DNA of 64,000 nt from Hymenobacter roseosalivarius DSM 11622 (GTDB taxonomy: Bacteria > Bacteroidota > Bacteroidia > Cytophagales > Hymenobacteraceae): positions 1 to 64,000 of the forward strand of contig NZ_FWWW01000091.1 of assembly GCF_900176135.1 (NCBI RefSeq). The letters are read 5' to 3'. Under the pieces are notes generated by a model. That model was not told the origin of the DNA and ran no database searches. It saw only the letters and a program-made list of their open reading frames with translations. This document shows, one piece after another, positions 7,589-48,814 of this stretch (position 1 is the stretch's first letter; each line of letters begins with the position of its first letter). Made by a program: the position numbers and the translations under genes.

Positions 7589-7893
7589 TAGCAGGAGTTT
7601 AGGCTGTTCTGAACTGGCGAAATTACGCAAAAAGCCGCGCGGCTTTTGTATAAAGTAGCCAGGGTTGGACACGAGGTACGCTTCGTCGGCTCTGGGGGGC
7701 TTTATCGCCCTCCCCGGGACCCCACCCCCGGCCCCTCCCCTCCGGGAGAGGGGAGCCGAATAAAAGAACGTCTTGGTTTTAACCCGTCTGGCTCCCCTCT
7801 CCCGGAGGGGAGGGGCCGGGGGTGGGGTCCACCGGGGAGCACGGCCATACACGCACCAGAAACCGATGTTACGTGTTTATTAAAGACATCTGA
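7589..7893. other. leuS upstream region carrying a large palindrome
   Basis: This 305-base gene-free stretch lies between leuS and the porin gene. It holds the leuS promoter region (7610-7640) and the long palindrome at 7714-7834. One copy of the GGGGGGC motif lies near 7694. No gene of its own is apparent. Confidence 0.7.
7714..7834. repeat. Long GC-rich palindromic element
   Basis: Two arms of about 41 bases form an almost perfect inverted repeat around a loop near 7760-7788. The left arm contains CCCCACCCCCGGCCCCTCCC and the right arm its complement. Long C-runs and a CCGGGAGAGGGGAG block are also seen in the repeat arms at 4303-4634, so the two may be related. It resembles the repetitive extragenic palindromes of GC-rich bacteria. 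Confidence 0.85.
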
Positions 7894-9156: not shown

Positions 9157-9250
9157 CCGTCATGCTGAGGTACGAAGCATCTCGCGTGCTGATGTTGGAT
9201 TACTACTGCAACGAAGCGAGCGAGATGCTTCCTGTCGTCAGCATGATGGT
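9157..9250. repeat. Palindromic intergenic element, family A
   Basis: The left arm reads GTCATGCTGAGGTACGAAGC followed by ATCTCGCGTGCTGATG, and the right arm gives its imperfect complement ending GTCAGCATGATGG. Relatives lie at 10042-10281, 25921-26009, 29201-29293 and 36491-36590. It fills the gap between the porin and CrtA-like genes. Confidence 0.85.
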
Positions 9251-10041: not shown

Positions 10042-10281
10042 GTCATGTAGAGGCGGAGCCGAAGCATCTCGCGTGCTGATGTTGCCCTACTATTTGTCAT
10101 CCTGAATCTGGCGTCCGCTTGCGAAGGACCTTCTCACCGATGAATAACTAGACTAGCAACGCCTTGTTCAGACGTGTAAAGGTCCTTCGCAAGCGGACGC
10201 CAGATTCAGGATGACAGACGGCTTTTGGCAATGACCGGAGCAACGACCGTACGCGAGATGCTTCGCGCCGCTCTGCATGAC
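10042..10281. repeat. Nested palindromic elements: family B inside family A
   Basis: The outer arms (10042-10080 and 10250-10281) are family A, with GAAGCATCTCGCGT on the left and ACGCGAGATGCTTCGCG on the right. In the loop sits a complete family B palindrome at 10095-10216, with arms starting TGTCATCCTGAATCTGGCGT and joined by a short loop. The family B arms match each other base for base over about 38 positions. Confidence 0.9.
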
Positions 10282-24487: not shown

Positions 24488-24979
24488 ATGCCCAAAATCG
24501 AGATTGTCACGACGATCAACGCTCCCCAGCAAATCTGTTTTCAGTTAGCCCTAAGCGTTGATCTGCACACTATCTCCACTCGCCAAACGCAAGAAGAAAT
24601 CGTGGCGGGAGTGCGAACTGGCATCCTACAACTAGGGGATAGTGTTACGTTTCGAGCGCGCCACTTCGGTATTTGGCAGACGTTAAGCAGCAAAATCACC
24701 GAATTTAAAGCGCCTATTTATTTTTGCGACGTCATGCAAAAAGGAGCATTTAAGTCGATGCGTCATGAGCATTACTTCCAACCCAGCGGCGCAGTGACTA
24801 TTATGCGTGACGTGTTTGAGTTCGAGTCACCCTTGGGGCACTTGGGGAAATTGGTCGATGCGCTGATACTGAAACGATATCTGCGAAAGTTTTTGCGGGA
24901 ACGATGCAATGTGGTGAAGCAATATGCTGAGAGCGGAGCTTGGCGAGAAGTTCTGTCTGTTCCAACTTCAGTATCTTGA
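24488..24979 (+). CDS. SRPBCC (START-like) ligand-binding protein
   Basis: A 163-residue cytosolic protein with the SRPBCC fold: [26 protein letters not shown] (first strand and helices), [53 protein letters not shown] and the long C-terminal helix [22 protein letters not shown]. Members bind hydrophobic ligands, and this cyclase/dehydrase-like subgroup is uncharacterised. A terminator follows at 25001-25030, so it is separate from thyA. Confidence 0.85.
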
Positions 24980-24997
24980 ACCAAGGAAAGTCAAAAA

Positions 24998-25030
24998 CAG
25001 AAAAGCCGCCCCAAACCGGGCGGCTTTTTC
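24998..25030. terminator. Rho-independent terminator
   Basis: AAAAGCCGCCC-CAAACC-GGGCGGCTTTTT is a ten-base perfect stem with a T-run. It separates the SRPBCC gene from thyA. Confidence 0.92.
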
Positions 25031-25038
25031 TATTTTTG
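25031..25038 (+). promoter_or_regulatory. Candidate -7 promoter element TATTTTTG for thyA
   Basis: TATTTTTG fits TAnnTTTG and lies directly after the terminator, 57 bases before the thyA ATG. No good -33 element can be made out because the terminator stem occupies that place. Confidence 0.5.
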
Positions 25039-25095
25039 ACAACTCGACCTCTCCGCACCTCTTTCAAGCCAGCTTCGGCGGGCGCTATTCTTCTC

Positions 25096-25890
25096 ATGCA
25101 GCAGTACCTCGACCTCGTTCGTCATATCCTCGACCACGGCACCCCCAAAACCGACCGCACCGGCACCGGCACGCTCTCGGTATTCGGCTACCAGATGCGC
25201 TTCGATCTGGCCCAGGGCTTTCCGCTGGTTACCACCAAAAAAGTCCACCTCAAAAGCATTATCCACGAGCTGCTGTGGTTTCTGCGCGGCGACACCAGCA
25301 ATACGTCGCTGGAAGAAGTGGGCGTGAGCATCTGGCGGGAGTGGGCCGACGCCAACGGCAACCTGGGGCCCATCTACGGCAAGCAGTGGCGCAGCTGGTC
25401 CGCGCCCGACGGCCAAAGCATCGACCAAATAGCCGAAATGGTGCGCCTGCTGCGTGAGCAGCCCGACTCGCGGCGCATGGTGGTATCGGCCTGGAACGTG
25501 GCCGACCTGCCCCTGATGCGCTTAACGCCCTGCCACGCCCTGTTTCAGTTTTACGTGGCCGACGGCAAGCTTTCCTGCCAGCTTTACCAGCGCTCCGCCG
25601 ACGTGTTTTTGGGCGTGCCCTTCAATATTGCCTCCTACGCCCTGCTCACGCTGATGATGGCCCAGGTAACCGGCCTGCAGCCCGGCGAGTTCATCTGGAC
25701 CGGTGGCGACACACACTTATACTCCAACCACCTGGAGCAGGCCCGCCTGCAGCTCACGCGGCTGCCGCGCCCGCTGCCCCAGCTGCGCCTGAACCCGGCC
25801 GTGACCGAACTATTCGGCTTTCAGTATGAGGACTTTACCCTCGAAAATTACGAGCCGCACCCAGCCATTAAGGCACCCGTAGCCGTATAG
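25096..25890 (+). CDS. thyA: Thymidylate synthase
   Basis: A 264-residue enzyme converting dUMP to dTMP with methylenetetrahydrofolate in the cytosol. The start is the ATG of [15 protein letters not shown], giving exactly the E. coli length. The catalytic cysteine is Cys146 in [12 protein letters not shown]; the dUMP-phosphate arginines are in DRTGTGT and DSRRM; the [26 protein letters not shown] and [10 protein letters not shown] blocks are intact. Its own promoter and an upstream terminator suggest independent transcription. Confidence 0.98.
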
Positions 25891-25920
25891 GCGGTTAGCT
25901 GCTCATCGCGTAAGGCAGTC

Positions 25921-26009
25921 CTGCTGAGCAGCGCGACGCCTCTCGCGTGCCCGCGTCGCAATGGTATCCCTGCCGGTCAGCACGCGAGAGGCGTCGCGCT
26001 GCTCAGCAG
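25921..26009. repeat. Family A palindrome with compensated arms
   Basis: A perfect 30-base inverted repeat with left arm CTGCTGAGCAGCGCGACGCC and on. Compared with other family A copies, GAAGCATCTC has become GACGCCTCTC in the left arm, and the right arm carries the matching complement, keeping every pair. Confidence 0.9.
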
Positions 26010-26135
26010 GAGGTTCTTATATGAATGTCGAATAACATTCGGCAACGAGGAATTTATTTGCTTGGACACACGTAGCCTATCAAGCCAGTCAAATCTGCCC
26101 CCCGGCATCCGTCAACTTTAGAAGTAGTAAGTACG

Positions 26136-26720
26136 ATGAAGCGTAGCGCCGCGAGCTTGAAGCACAAAGGATTTCTGCTGCTCATGGGGGGCTTATGGCT
26201 GGCCCTGATGGTGCCGGTGCCCGCTGCCCTGGCCCAGGGCAGCTACAACCGCTGGACCGCCCAGCCGCCCGCCACTATTGAGCCCTTACAAAAGAAAGTA
26301 CGAGCAGCTAAGCCCCAACCGGCTGCGGCTCCTGATACCACTGAGCAGCCTCGCGTAGCCCAGTCTAAGCTGCTCAAGCGCGGCTTGGGCAGCCGCATGC
26401 GCCAGGGGCAATCATTGCTTGAAGACAGTATTTCAATGGTATTCTTCTCCCAAAATAGTCGCTACCCAGCGCCGGCCGTGCAGGCTCGGGCCGAGGCAAA
26501 GGTGGTTATCAGGCTGCAAGTGGCACCGAATGGTCGGGTTAGTCGGACGTCGGTAGTCGCCCTGACACCGGTATCCAACCCATATCGCGATGGACCAGTG
26601 CCCGCGCCTGCCCTCCAGGCCCTCGCCGACGAGGCCCAGCGGGTATTCCGAATGCTGCGTTTTGAGCCTGGTCCGCAGACCTCAGAAGAGGATTTGAGCG
26701 CGAACTTCTCTATTCAATAA
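26136..26720 (+). CDS. TonB C-terminal-domain (energy transducer-like) protein
   Basis: A 194-residue protein with an N-terminal hydrophobic segment (GFLLLMGGLWLALMVPVPAALAQ) that reads as a signal peptide or anchor, a Pro/Ala-rich linker, and a C-terminal domain of the TonB type: YPAPAVQARAEAKVVIRLQVAPNGRVSRTSV and ALADEAQRVFRMLRFEPG. ExbB/ExbD are not nearby. Such stand-alone proteins are numerous in Bacteroidota and may not all energise receptors. A GCCCCCCGG motif lies about 40 bases upstream. Confidence 0.75.
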   Translation: MKRSAASLKHKGFLLLMGGLWLALMVPVPAALAQGSYNRWTAQPPATIEPLQKKVRAAKPQPAAAPDTTEQPRVAQSKLLKRGLGSRMRQGQSLLEDSISMVFFSQNSRYPAPAVQARAEAKVVIRLQVAPNGRVSRTSVVALTPVSNPYRDGPVPAPALQALADEAQRVFRMLRFEPGPQTSEEDLSANFSIQ

Positions 26721-35117: not shown

Positions 35118-35153
35118 AGGAGACACAACTATGTGTCTCTACCTCGTTCTAGC
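35118..35153. repeat. Partial family C unit
   Basis: GGAGACACAACTATGTGTCTCT folds on itself, and ACCTCGTTCTAGC continues it. The same frame in the long family C element reads GACGCG/CGCGTC; here it reads GACACA/TGTGTC, so both sides changed together. The unit lies between gatB and the thioredoxin lipoprotein. Confidence 0.65.
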
Positions 35154-36490: not shown

Positions 36491-36590
36491 GGCGGTCATG
36501 CTGAGTTTGTCGAAGCATCTCGCGGGTTTAACAGGATTACCAATCAGACATCAGCACGCGAGATGCTTCGCGCTGCTCAGCATGACCGCC
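36491..36590. repeat. Palindromic intergenic element, family A
   Basis: The left arm GGCGGTCATGCTGAGTTTGT and CGAAGCATCTCGCG pairs with the right arm CGCGAGATGCTTCGCGCTGC and TCAGCATGACCGCC around a loop of about 35 bases. Confidence 0.9.
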
Positions 36591-41497: not shown

Positions 41498-41566
41498 TAG
41501 TGTATAGCTCTGGTTTATACCTTGGTCTTACCAGTGAAAGGCCGTTTGCGCTAGCTGGAACGAGGT

Positions 41567-41673
41567 AGAGACGCGCATTCGCGTCTCAATCGTTGTGGTC
41601 GTTGTTTGGGCAGAACGGCGCGGTGCCGATCGTTCAACGATTGAGACGCGAATACGCGTCTCTACCTCGTTCC
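41567..41673. repeat. Palindromic intergenic element, family C
   Basis: GGAACGAGGTAGAGACGCGC and ATTCGCGTCTCAATCGTT form the left arm, with the right arm AACGATTGAGACGCGAATAC and GCGTCTCTACCTCGTTCC. Each arm is itself a hairpin (GAGACGCG-AATA-CGCGTCTC). Related units lie at 19217-19254, 35118-35153 and 43041-43140. Confidence 0.9.
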
Positions 41674-41682
41674 GGCTGACTG

Positions 41683-48470: not shown

Positions 48471-48814
48471 TGGTAATAAGTAGGGCTACCTTATCAGGTC
48501 GGACTTCGTGTGCTCATCCCTTGCCTAAGCCTGAACTATTTTTAGTAGGAATAGGCGGGGGCATAAAAAATGCTCGGCTCGCAACGGGGGCGAATGGAGC
48601 GTATATGTACTCTACTGGTTGTTTTTTAACTGTTTATGAAGCTGTTCAGAAAGTCGACTTCGGGTCATGCTTCATCTGGCGTCCGCTCGCCGAAGCATCC
48701 CTTCCGCTTCGTATGGGTCGTCTAACGAAGAGGGAGAGATGCTTCGGCGAGCGGACGCCAGATGAAGCATGACATTCTAATGTGATTTTAACGACTTCCG
48801 AAACTGCTTTTATA
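48471..48814. other. Gap between sigma factor and fecR, carrying a repeat
   Basis: Apart from the palindrome at 48664-48773, the remaining 200 bases hold no recognisable gene or RNA. Part of it must contain the fecR promoter, expected to be recognised by the neighbouring sigma factor. Confidence 0.6.
48664..48773. repeat. Palindromic element with mixed family A/B arms
   Basis: GTCATGCTTCATCTGGCGTC and CGCTCGCCGAAGCATC pair exactly with GATGCTTCGGCGAGCGGACG and CCAGATGAAGCATGAC. The outer GTCATGC and the inner GAAGCATC are family A wording, while CTGGCGTCCGCT between them is family B wording. Confidence 0.88.

Follow-up and report, generated by a model that had tools for sequence, protein, structure and literature searches.

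Among described repeat systems, the closest to the one studied here are CGTC-tagged REPs, REPINs and quasipalindromes altered by template switching. The unit descriptions in Di Nocera et al. (2013; PMC3733652) give CGTC REPs a terminal CGTC (or TGTC, CCTC) tag outside the stem, A-T and T-A as the first two pairs, a stem of 8 or 9 bp, a loop of 4–5 and a tail fitting CCA, with no RAYT flanked by the repeats. In REPINs, as outlined by Bertels and Rainey (2011; PMC3116915), two inverted REPs and their spacer fold as a single long hairpin, and compensatory changes are common in these hairpins; matched changes as such are therefore not new. Arm homogenization by template switching is reported for numerous organisms in the portion of PMC8604942 that treats short inverted repeats. 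Our literature search found no paper joining inverted repeat, template switching and repetitive extragenic palindromes, and queries on Hymenobacter with repeat or REP returned no close match; a term search found no mention of Hymenobacter in PMC12306157 or PMC6006769.

Architecture of the copy and of its family

The window analyzed here is the whole stretch of 64 kb, bases 1–64000 of contig C74 from a Hymenobacter genome of 4.95 Mb in 122 contigs. The copy at 25918–26012 consists of two REP-type units inverted head to head, with the GTC tag outside (Table 1). Its arms are 32 nt long and 100% complementary, with 29 nt between them; the earlier note had given a perfect stem of 30 bases, correct as to its perfection and too short as to its length. 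The two units differ solely at the first base, and the tags read AGTC on the left and CCTC on the right. Three changes from the family consensus are matched, A-to-C in the left arm and T-to-G in the right. A paired change in both arms had been recognized before and is confirmed, although its number was understated, the pair 25921/26009 having been missed. At 25935–25944, GAAGCATCTC is replaced by GACGCCTCTC, and the complement is likewise replaced in the right arm.

Table 1. Coordinates of the copy, its parts, neighboring reading frames and related repeats in the window.
Feature	Coordinates	Strand	Remarks
Upstream ORF	24940..25890	+	ends 27 bp before the repeat
Left REP-type unit	25918..25945	+	GTCCTGCTGAG-CAGCGC-GACGCCTCTCG
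Left arm of 32-bp perfect stem	25919..25950	+	
Spacer separating perfect arms	25951..25979	no strand	
Right arm of 32-bp perfect stem	25980..26011	-	
Right REP-type unit, inverted	25985..26012	-	loop CAGCGC and inner part GACGCCTCTCG as in left unit
Matched change 1, A to C	25921	+	partner 26009; unit start GTCCTGC, consensus GTCATGC
Matched change 2, A to C	25937	+	partner 25993
Matched change 3, A to C	25940	+	partner 25990
Downstream ORF	26136..26720	+	same direction
Further family A doublet	9159..9247	+	arm loops differ, GTAC vs GACAG
Further family A doublet	36495..36586	+	arm loops differ, TTTGTC vs CAGCGC
Family C doublet	41553..41677	+	GAGACGCG..CGCGTCTC units

DNA folding of 25914–26016 gave -52.7 kcal/mol (z -12.3, equalled by 0 of 200 shuffles), and RNA folding of the copy gave -86.6 (z -10.7). 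Within each unit, three of the five internal pairs are mismatched (C.T, T.C, T.C), including the first two stem pairs, C.T and T.C; the third mismatched pair (8-22) is generally unpaired in the family, being formed in 39 of 278 arms. The unit's own short hairpin therefore cannot be keeping the arms of this copy alike. The upstream reading frame has a C-terminal sequence that we take to resemble thymidylate synthase.

Family units have the form GTC-ATGC(A/T)GAG-loop-GAAGCAT-CTCG, with the consensus GTCATGC(A/T)GAG-loop-GAAGCATCTCG, and two head-to-head units plus a spacer make up a doublet of ~93 bp. A 12-base unit-start probe with at most one mismatch matched the genome 488 times, as against 235 for its reversed control, and the genome holds the exact core pair GAAGCATCTCGC..GCGAGATGCTTC in 37 positions. 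Distinct doublets were gathered from stretches fetched around search matches by means of a consensus-favoring pattern. The resulting sets, 56 in this genome, 41 in the relative G107 and 42 in the relative G087, do not amount to a census; with an earlier pattern that differed slightly, this genome yielded 58. Outside the units the flank is rich in A, AGAAC preceding GTC in 67 of 278 arms and AGGCG in 37, and the sequence downstream of the stem is consequently T-rich.

The family resembles the head-to-head dimers of CGTC-tagged REPs in its short palindromic units, outer GTC tag and orientation, and in that no dedicated transposase was found, as far as those dimers are described in PMC3733652. 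Among 278 arms collected with a pattern that itself favors GTC and the consensus, the GTC tag is almost invariant and the first stem pairs are CGTC-like (A-T in 267, T-A in 268); GTC follows C in 168 arms, G in 68, T in 34 and A in 8. Unlike the 8 or 9 pairs given in that paper for CGTC REPs, the continuous internal stem here has 4–5 pairs, with pairs 4-26 to 7-23 formed in 270, 269, 273 and 274 of the 278 arms, and the tail is CTC instead of CCA (columns 27–29 are C, T and C with 3, 8 and 3 exceptions). Homogenized arms combined with anti-matched spacer halves are absent from the relevant sections of PMC3733652, which report homodimers or heterodimers by family.

The two inverted units and their spacer are also like REPINs as defined in PMC3116915, from which they differ in having no linked RAYT among 32 Y1_Tnp loci and in spacer halves that avoid likeness. 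A unit-like match, and a poor one, was present in one of these loci (30 among the matches listed plus the two of this genome). Neither of the two Y1_Tnp genes of this genome has a doublet beside it, and G006, G010 and G023 lack a Y1_Tnp match at E 0.001 although their doublet-length matches number at least 4, 6 and 6. RAYT-linked mobility is therefore unsupported: the genome's own Y1 genes lack an adjoining doublet and these doublet-bearing relatives lack a Y1_Tnp match. It had been proposed that the arms are copied from one another during mobility; copying is the better-supported half of that proposal, and the tie to mobility is unsupported, no Y1 transposase having been seen linked to the repeats and one fixed shared site having a change matched in both arms (see below). 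Because the CGTC stem length and tail and the RAYT linkage of REPINs are all lacking, we describe the family as CGTC-like and REPIN-like and assign it to neither group. Like template switching at quasipalindromes in the account of PMC8604942, the present case extends identity between the arms of an imperfect inverted repeat, although that is a mutational process whereas this is a repeat family.

Matching between arms and its possible causes

The covariation above drift that the earlier note expected is present in each of three genomes. The loop is identical in both arms of 31 of 56 doublets in this genome (shuffle mean 3.8), 27 of 41 in G107 (4.2) and 19 of 42 in G087 (5.7), figures reached by 0 of 5000 shuffles in every case, in tests of arm matching that ignore kinship between copies. 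The outer part of the unit is matched beyond shuffles in all three genomes (reached by 0, 2 and 0 of 5000), and so is the inner part in two of them, this genome and G087 (0 and 5 of 5000). The inner part in G107 has no match beyond shuffles (32 vs 30.7; 813 of 5000 reach it), which counts against copying. Arm mismatches total 89, 43 and 45 in this genome and its two relatives vs shuffle means of 183.0, 79.8 and 82.4, each total lying under the lowest of 300 shuffles, and the three bases just outside the unit match between arms in 40 of 139 doublets vs 19.0 in shuffles. Length variants are matched as well: loops of 2, 4, 7 and 8 bases occur in the same form in both arms, an outcome that is hard to obtain through paired point mutation. 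Among loci of other named Hymenobacter(aceae), 16 of 24 doublets have a loop common to both arms (shuffle mean 4.1, 0 of 2000). Doublets of other phyla, a group biased by the choice of loci on one arm's sequence, have the same loop in 3 of 46 (shuffle mean 4.5), so arm matching does not hold for this REP type in general; this, too, counts against copying.

Since kinship of copies could inflate these counts, we also counted private states, those confined to a single doublet of the genome concerned. Such states are present in both arms in 4, 2 and 1 cases in the three genomes, vs 0.02, 0.04 and 0.03 expected from independent hits, and two of the four in this genome are in the copy at 25918–26012. 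Private states confined to one arm outnumber them (12, 21 and 18), which indicates that copying is not fast relative to mutation or that selection also acts. When the three genomes were pooled, 2 private states were in both arms and 14 in one. Private loops number 6, 3 and 2 in both arms and 17, 5 and 16 in one arm.

These private states bear on whether the matching is simply inherited, the doublet lineage having been matched already or copied whole into a site, with mismatches arising later through decay or recombination between lineages. The recurrence of common loop types (CAGCGC, CGAAGC, CGGAGC, CGGTAGC) in many doublets accords with inheritance, as do the mostly different loops and spacers at shared sites, by which whole-element replacement appears to happen. 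Against it, the both-arm private states, including the two in this copy, have no other bearer among the genome's collected doublets, and the spacer halves of the same doublets are unmatched. The 15-mer GCGACGCCTCTCGCG, which contains two of the three matched changes, likewise argues against inheritance. Among 120 genomes of the genus, two contain it: this one, once per arm, and G104, a single time and by eye outside any such repeat; no other REP copy in the 120 bears it. Descent of the variant from another lineage was rejected on this ground, and we consider inherited matching improbable. The change at 25940 by itself is also found in one arm of another doublet (L029).

With moderate confidence, we infer that what keeps the arms alike is mostly copying between them at the level of DNA, as opposed to selected double mutation; an enzymatic route and a direction of copying can only be proposed. 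The likely route would be a template switch while the quasipalindrome is replicated, or repair of mismatches in an extruded or single-stranded hairpin. The three A-to-C substitutions of this copy would have arisen in one arm and reached the other through a single copying event or a few such events, and the spacer, offering no matching partner, would mark the boundary of copying. DNA-level copying accounts for private two-arm variants, matched length changes, the lack of a G.U bias and the boundary at the spacer. The evidence in its favor includes the arm matching in three genomes of the genus, the private both-arm states, the absent G.U bias, the broken short stem and a matched base at one shared site (see below). 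Counted against copying, the doublets provide no step-by-step series and no direction of change that can be fixed.

The main rival to arm copying is selection on the long hairpin, whether as single-stranded DNA, a cruciform or a terminator-like stem behind genes, which would keep the arms complementary via compensatory double changes and could act alongside copying. Its appeal lies in the very stable fold, the A-rich flank outside the stem and the position of the elements near gene ends (median 38 bp from the 3' end and 74 bp from the 5' end); compensatory changes are, moreover, stated in PMC3116915 to be common in REPIN hairpins. The gene context itself is much like that of intergenic gaps in the same loci. 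By simple ORF calling, the 139 doublets comprise 89 tandem, 33 convergent, 11 divergent, 5 unclassified and 1 within an ORF, and gaps of at least 90 bp in the same loci comprise 114 tandem, 39 convergent and 17 divergent; these counts show no clear preference of doublets for 3' ends. At least one arm mismatch or gap is present in 97 of the 139 doublets (42 have none), and the matched changes in loop length would require exact double indels. A terminator scan was silent at the copy, although the scan was limited to loops of 3–8 and blind to such a spacer. Given this evidence, together with the strand counts below, selection on the long hairpin appears unlikely as the principal cause of the matching.

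A transition in one arm gives a G.U or an A.C pair, depending on the strand, and a selected RNA stem is expected to tolerate G.U better. On the sense strand, as defined by doublets between same-direction genes only, one-arm transitions gave 28 G.U vs 27 A.C. G.U is thus not in excess, which argues against selection on the long hairpin and was our ground for rejecting RNA selection as the cause of matching; the suggestion that the folded RNA form is selected finds no support here. Selection on an RNA from the element, either a structured small RNA or an mRNA stabilizer, would fit the nearness to gene ends. Rfam gave no match at gathering scores anywhere in the 64-kb window, and little side preference relative to the upstream gene is seen for the most frequent spacer module (30 v 23 among 89 tandem elements, with 4 having it on both sides and 32 on neither). 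An RNA-level explanation is accordingly very improbable.

Spacer halves and the same sites in relatives

The spacer halves, unlike the arms, avoid likeness to each other, which was unexpected. Over spacer positions 5–13, this genome has 161 matches where shuffles average 205.8 (none of 5000 as low) and G107 has 141 vs 173.1 (10 of 5000), with G087 showing a difference that is not significant (147 vs 158.8; 730 of 5000). With module classes made by eye, same-module spacers number 3 of 55 in this genome (8.1 expected), 2 of 41 in G107 (10.4) and 2 of 42 in G087 (7.6), or 7 of 138 overall where ~26 are expected; values as low were obtained in 82, 1 and 19 of 5000 re-pairings. The halves may be unlike because a very long perfect palindrome is avoided. 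Di Nocera et al. (PMC3733652), in their remarks on heterodimers, suggest that these may escape enzymatic removal, and name the SbcCD complex. The combination of like arms and unlike spacer halves offers a testable handle on how REP doublets persist short of long perfect palindromes. Spacer inversion is a known by-product of template switching. Two of 10 ortholog pairs score higher when the spacer is inverted, one of them by 10.5 v 0.5, a suggestive case that consists of common modules and is given no weight, and a convincing inversion is absent among the 10, which we count against template switching.

In G010, G107 and G087 the site of the copy is occupied by a decayed half-element. Its scores against the half-element consensus are 23, 17 and 16 (reached by 0 of 500 shuffles in each case), and perfect inverted repeats there do not exceed 8 bases in any of the three genomes. 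Compared with the decayed elements, the window copy scores 11, 8 and 8, values reached by 19, 287 and 295 of 500 shuffles. The two sets of scores indicate that the site is old and its content different; the likeness of the window copy at or near chance counts against copying.

For G104 and G131, taken to be very closely related species, the best repeat matches did not correspond to each other, and these loci enter no count. Thirty-one ortholog pairs, chosen from flank matches, were compared, and in seven of them both 40-base flanks had at least 0.60 identity (random 95th percentile 0.59). These seven comprise three with matched but different loops, one with the same loops and three matched in only one species. 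From 200 kb of G087, both flanks of 13 of 15 doublets were found in G107, where a doublet is present in 5 of the 13; from 200 kb of G107, 15 of 16 doublets were flanked in G087, 5 with a doublet there, not counting a sixth whose target gap spans 20 kb. Element content is widely different at most shared sites, so matched arms may stem from replacement. At the shared site that gives the clearest case (G087 C2:1653662 and G107 C11:353933), with flanks ~91 and 94% identical, a single C/A difference is matched in both arms. The right half-spacer is conserved there and the left half-spacer is different, so the element at this site may have been partly exchanged.

Private variants, the G.U and A.C counts, this same-site ortholog and the contrast of spacer with arms point to concerted copying. 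When bacterial hairpin repeats change in pairs, structural selection is the usual reading; on the present evidence, covariation alone is no proof of a functional fold, of RNA or of DNA, in repeats of this kind. A more tentative reading, which we regard as doubtful, is that Hymenobacter doublets are cassette-like, with arms homogenized per copy, unlike spacer-half modules drawn from a small set, and halves swapped at fixed sites of the chromosome faster than flanks diverge. If true, it would imply active half-element exchange free of a transposase, in addition to arm copying. Five target regions were drawn in search of a clean empty site defining the inserted unit, and none was tidy. In one of the five, the place in G107 syntenic to G087 C2:1551925 holds a perfect 28-base palindrome, as if formed by a central, symmetric deletion.

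Family C and other repeats

Family C, the GAGACGC repeats of the same genome, is like family A in consisting of head-to-head pairs of short hairpin units. Paired changes had been noted in it as similar to those of the copy at 25918–26012, and they are right as sequence (GACGCG/CGCGTC at 41565–41587, GACACA/TGTGTC at 35120–35142); they lie, however, within one short hairpin and do not run from arm to arm as in family A. The unit is GAGAC-NNN-loop-NNN-GTCTC, with inner triplets GCG/CGC in 19, GCA/TGC in 6 and ACA/TGT in 5 of 38 units. Covariation was scored on these 38 units of 23 bases, 17 longer ones being left out; all three inner pairs (G.U allowed) are formed in 31 of the 38, whereas shuffles average 23.0 and reach 29 at most. 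Family C thus covaries inside each short hairpin, whereas the copy at 25918–26012 has a broken internal stem, and the two cases should not be pooled. Family C also has arm matching, of a weaker degree: five of 16 head-to-head pairs have identical units (shuffle mean 1.1; 9 of 5000 reach 5), and in three of these five the unit type is unique within the list.

The unit GTCATGCTGAGCNNNGCGAAGCATCTCGC, with 26 fixed bases, is found exactly in at least 118 stretches (L041–L158), of which 28 are from Hymenobacter(aceae); the other bearers, among the matches listed, include Chloroflexi, Acidobacteria, Planctomycetes, Deltaproteobacteria, Armatimonadota, Nitrospinae and Bacteroidales. Outside Hymenobacter, internal pair 6-24 covaries in these stretches, being G-C in 97, T-A in 35 and C-G in 23 of 157 units. 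Head-to-head doublets with the same stem type number 1 of 46 in other phyla vs 23 of 24 in Hymenobacter, a heterodimer contrast that is a lead only, since selection of the loci by the sequence of one arm biases partner frequencies.

Elsewhere in the window, a G+C-rich inverted repeat of another kind at 7717–7830 is perfect over 41 bases. The inverted repeats at 10095–10216 and 48664–48773 have an uncommon long unit loop (..CTGGCGTCCGCT..), which is matched between the arms within each copy.
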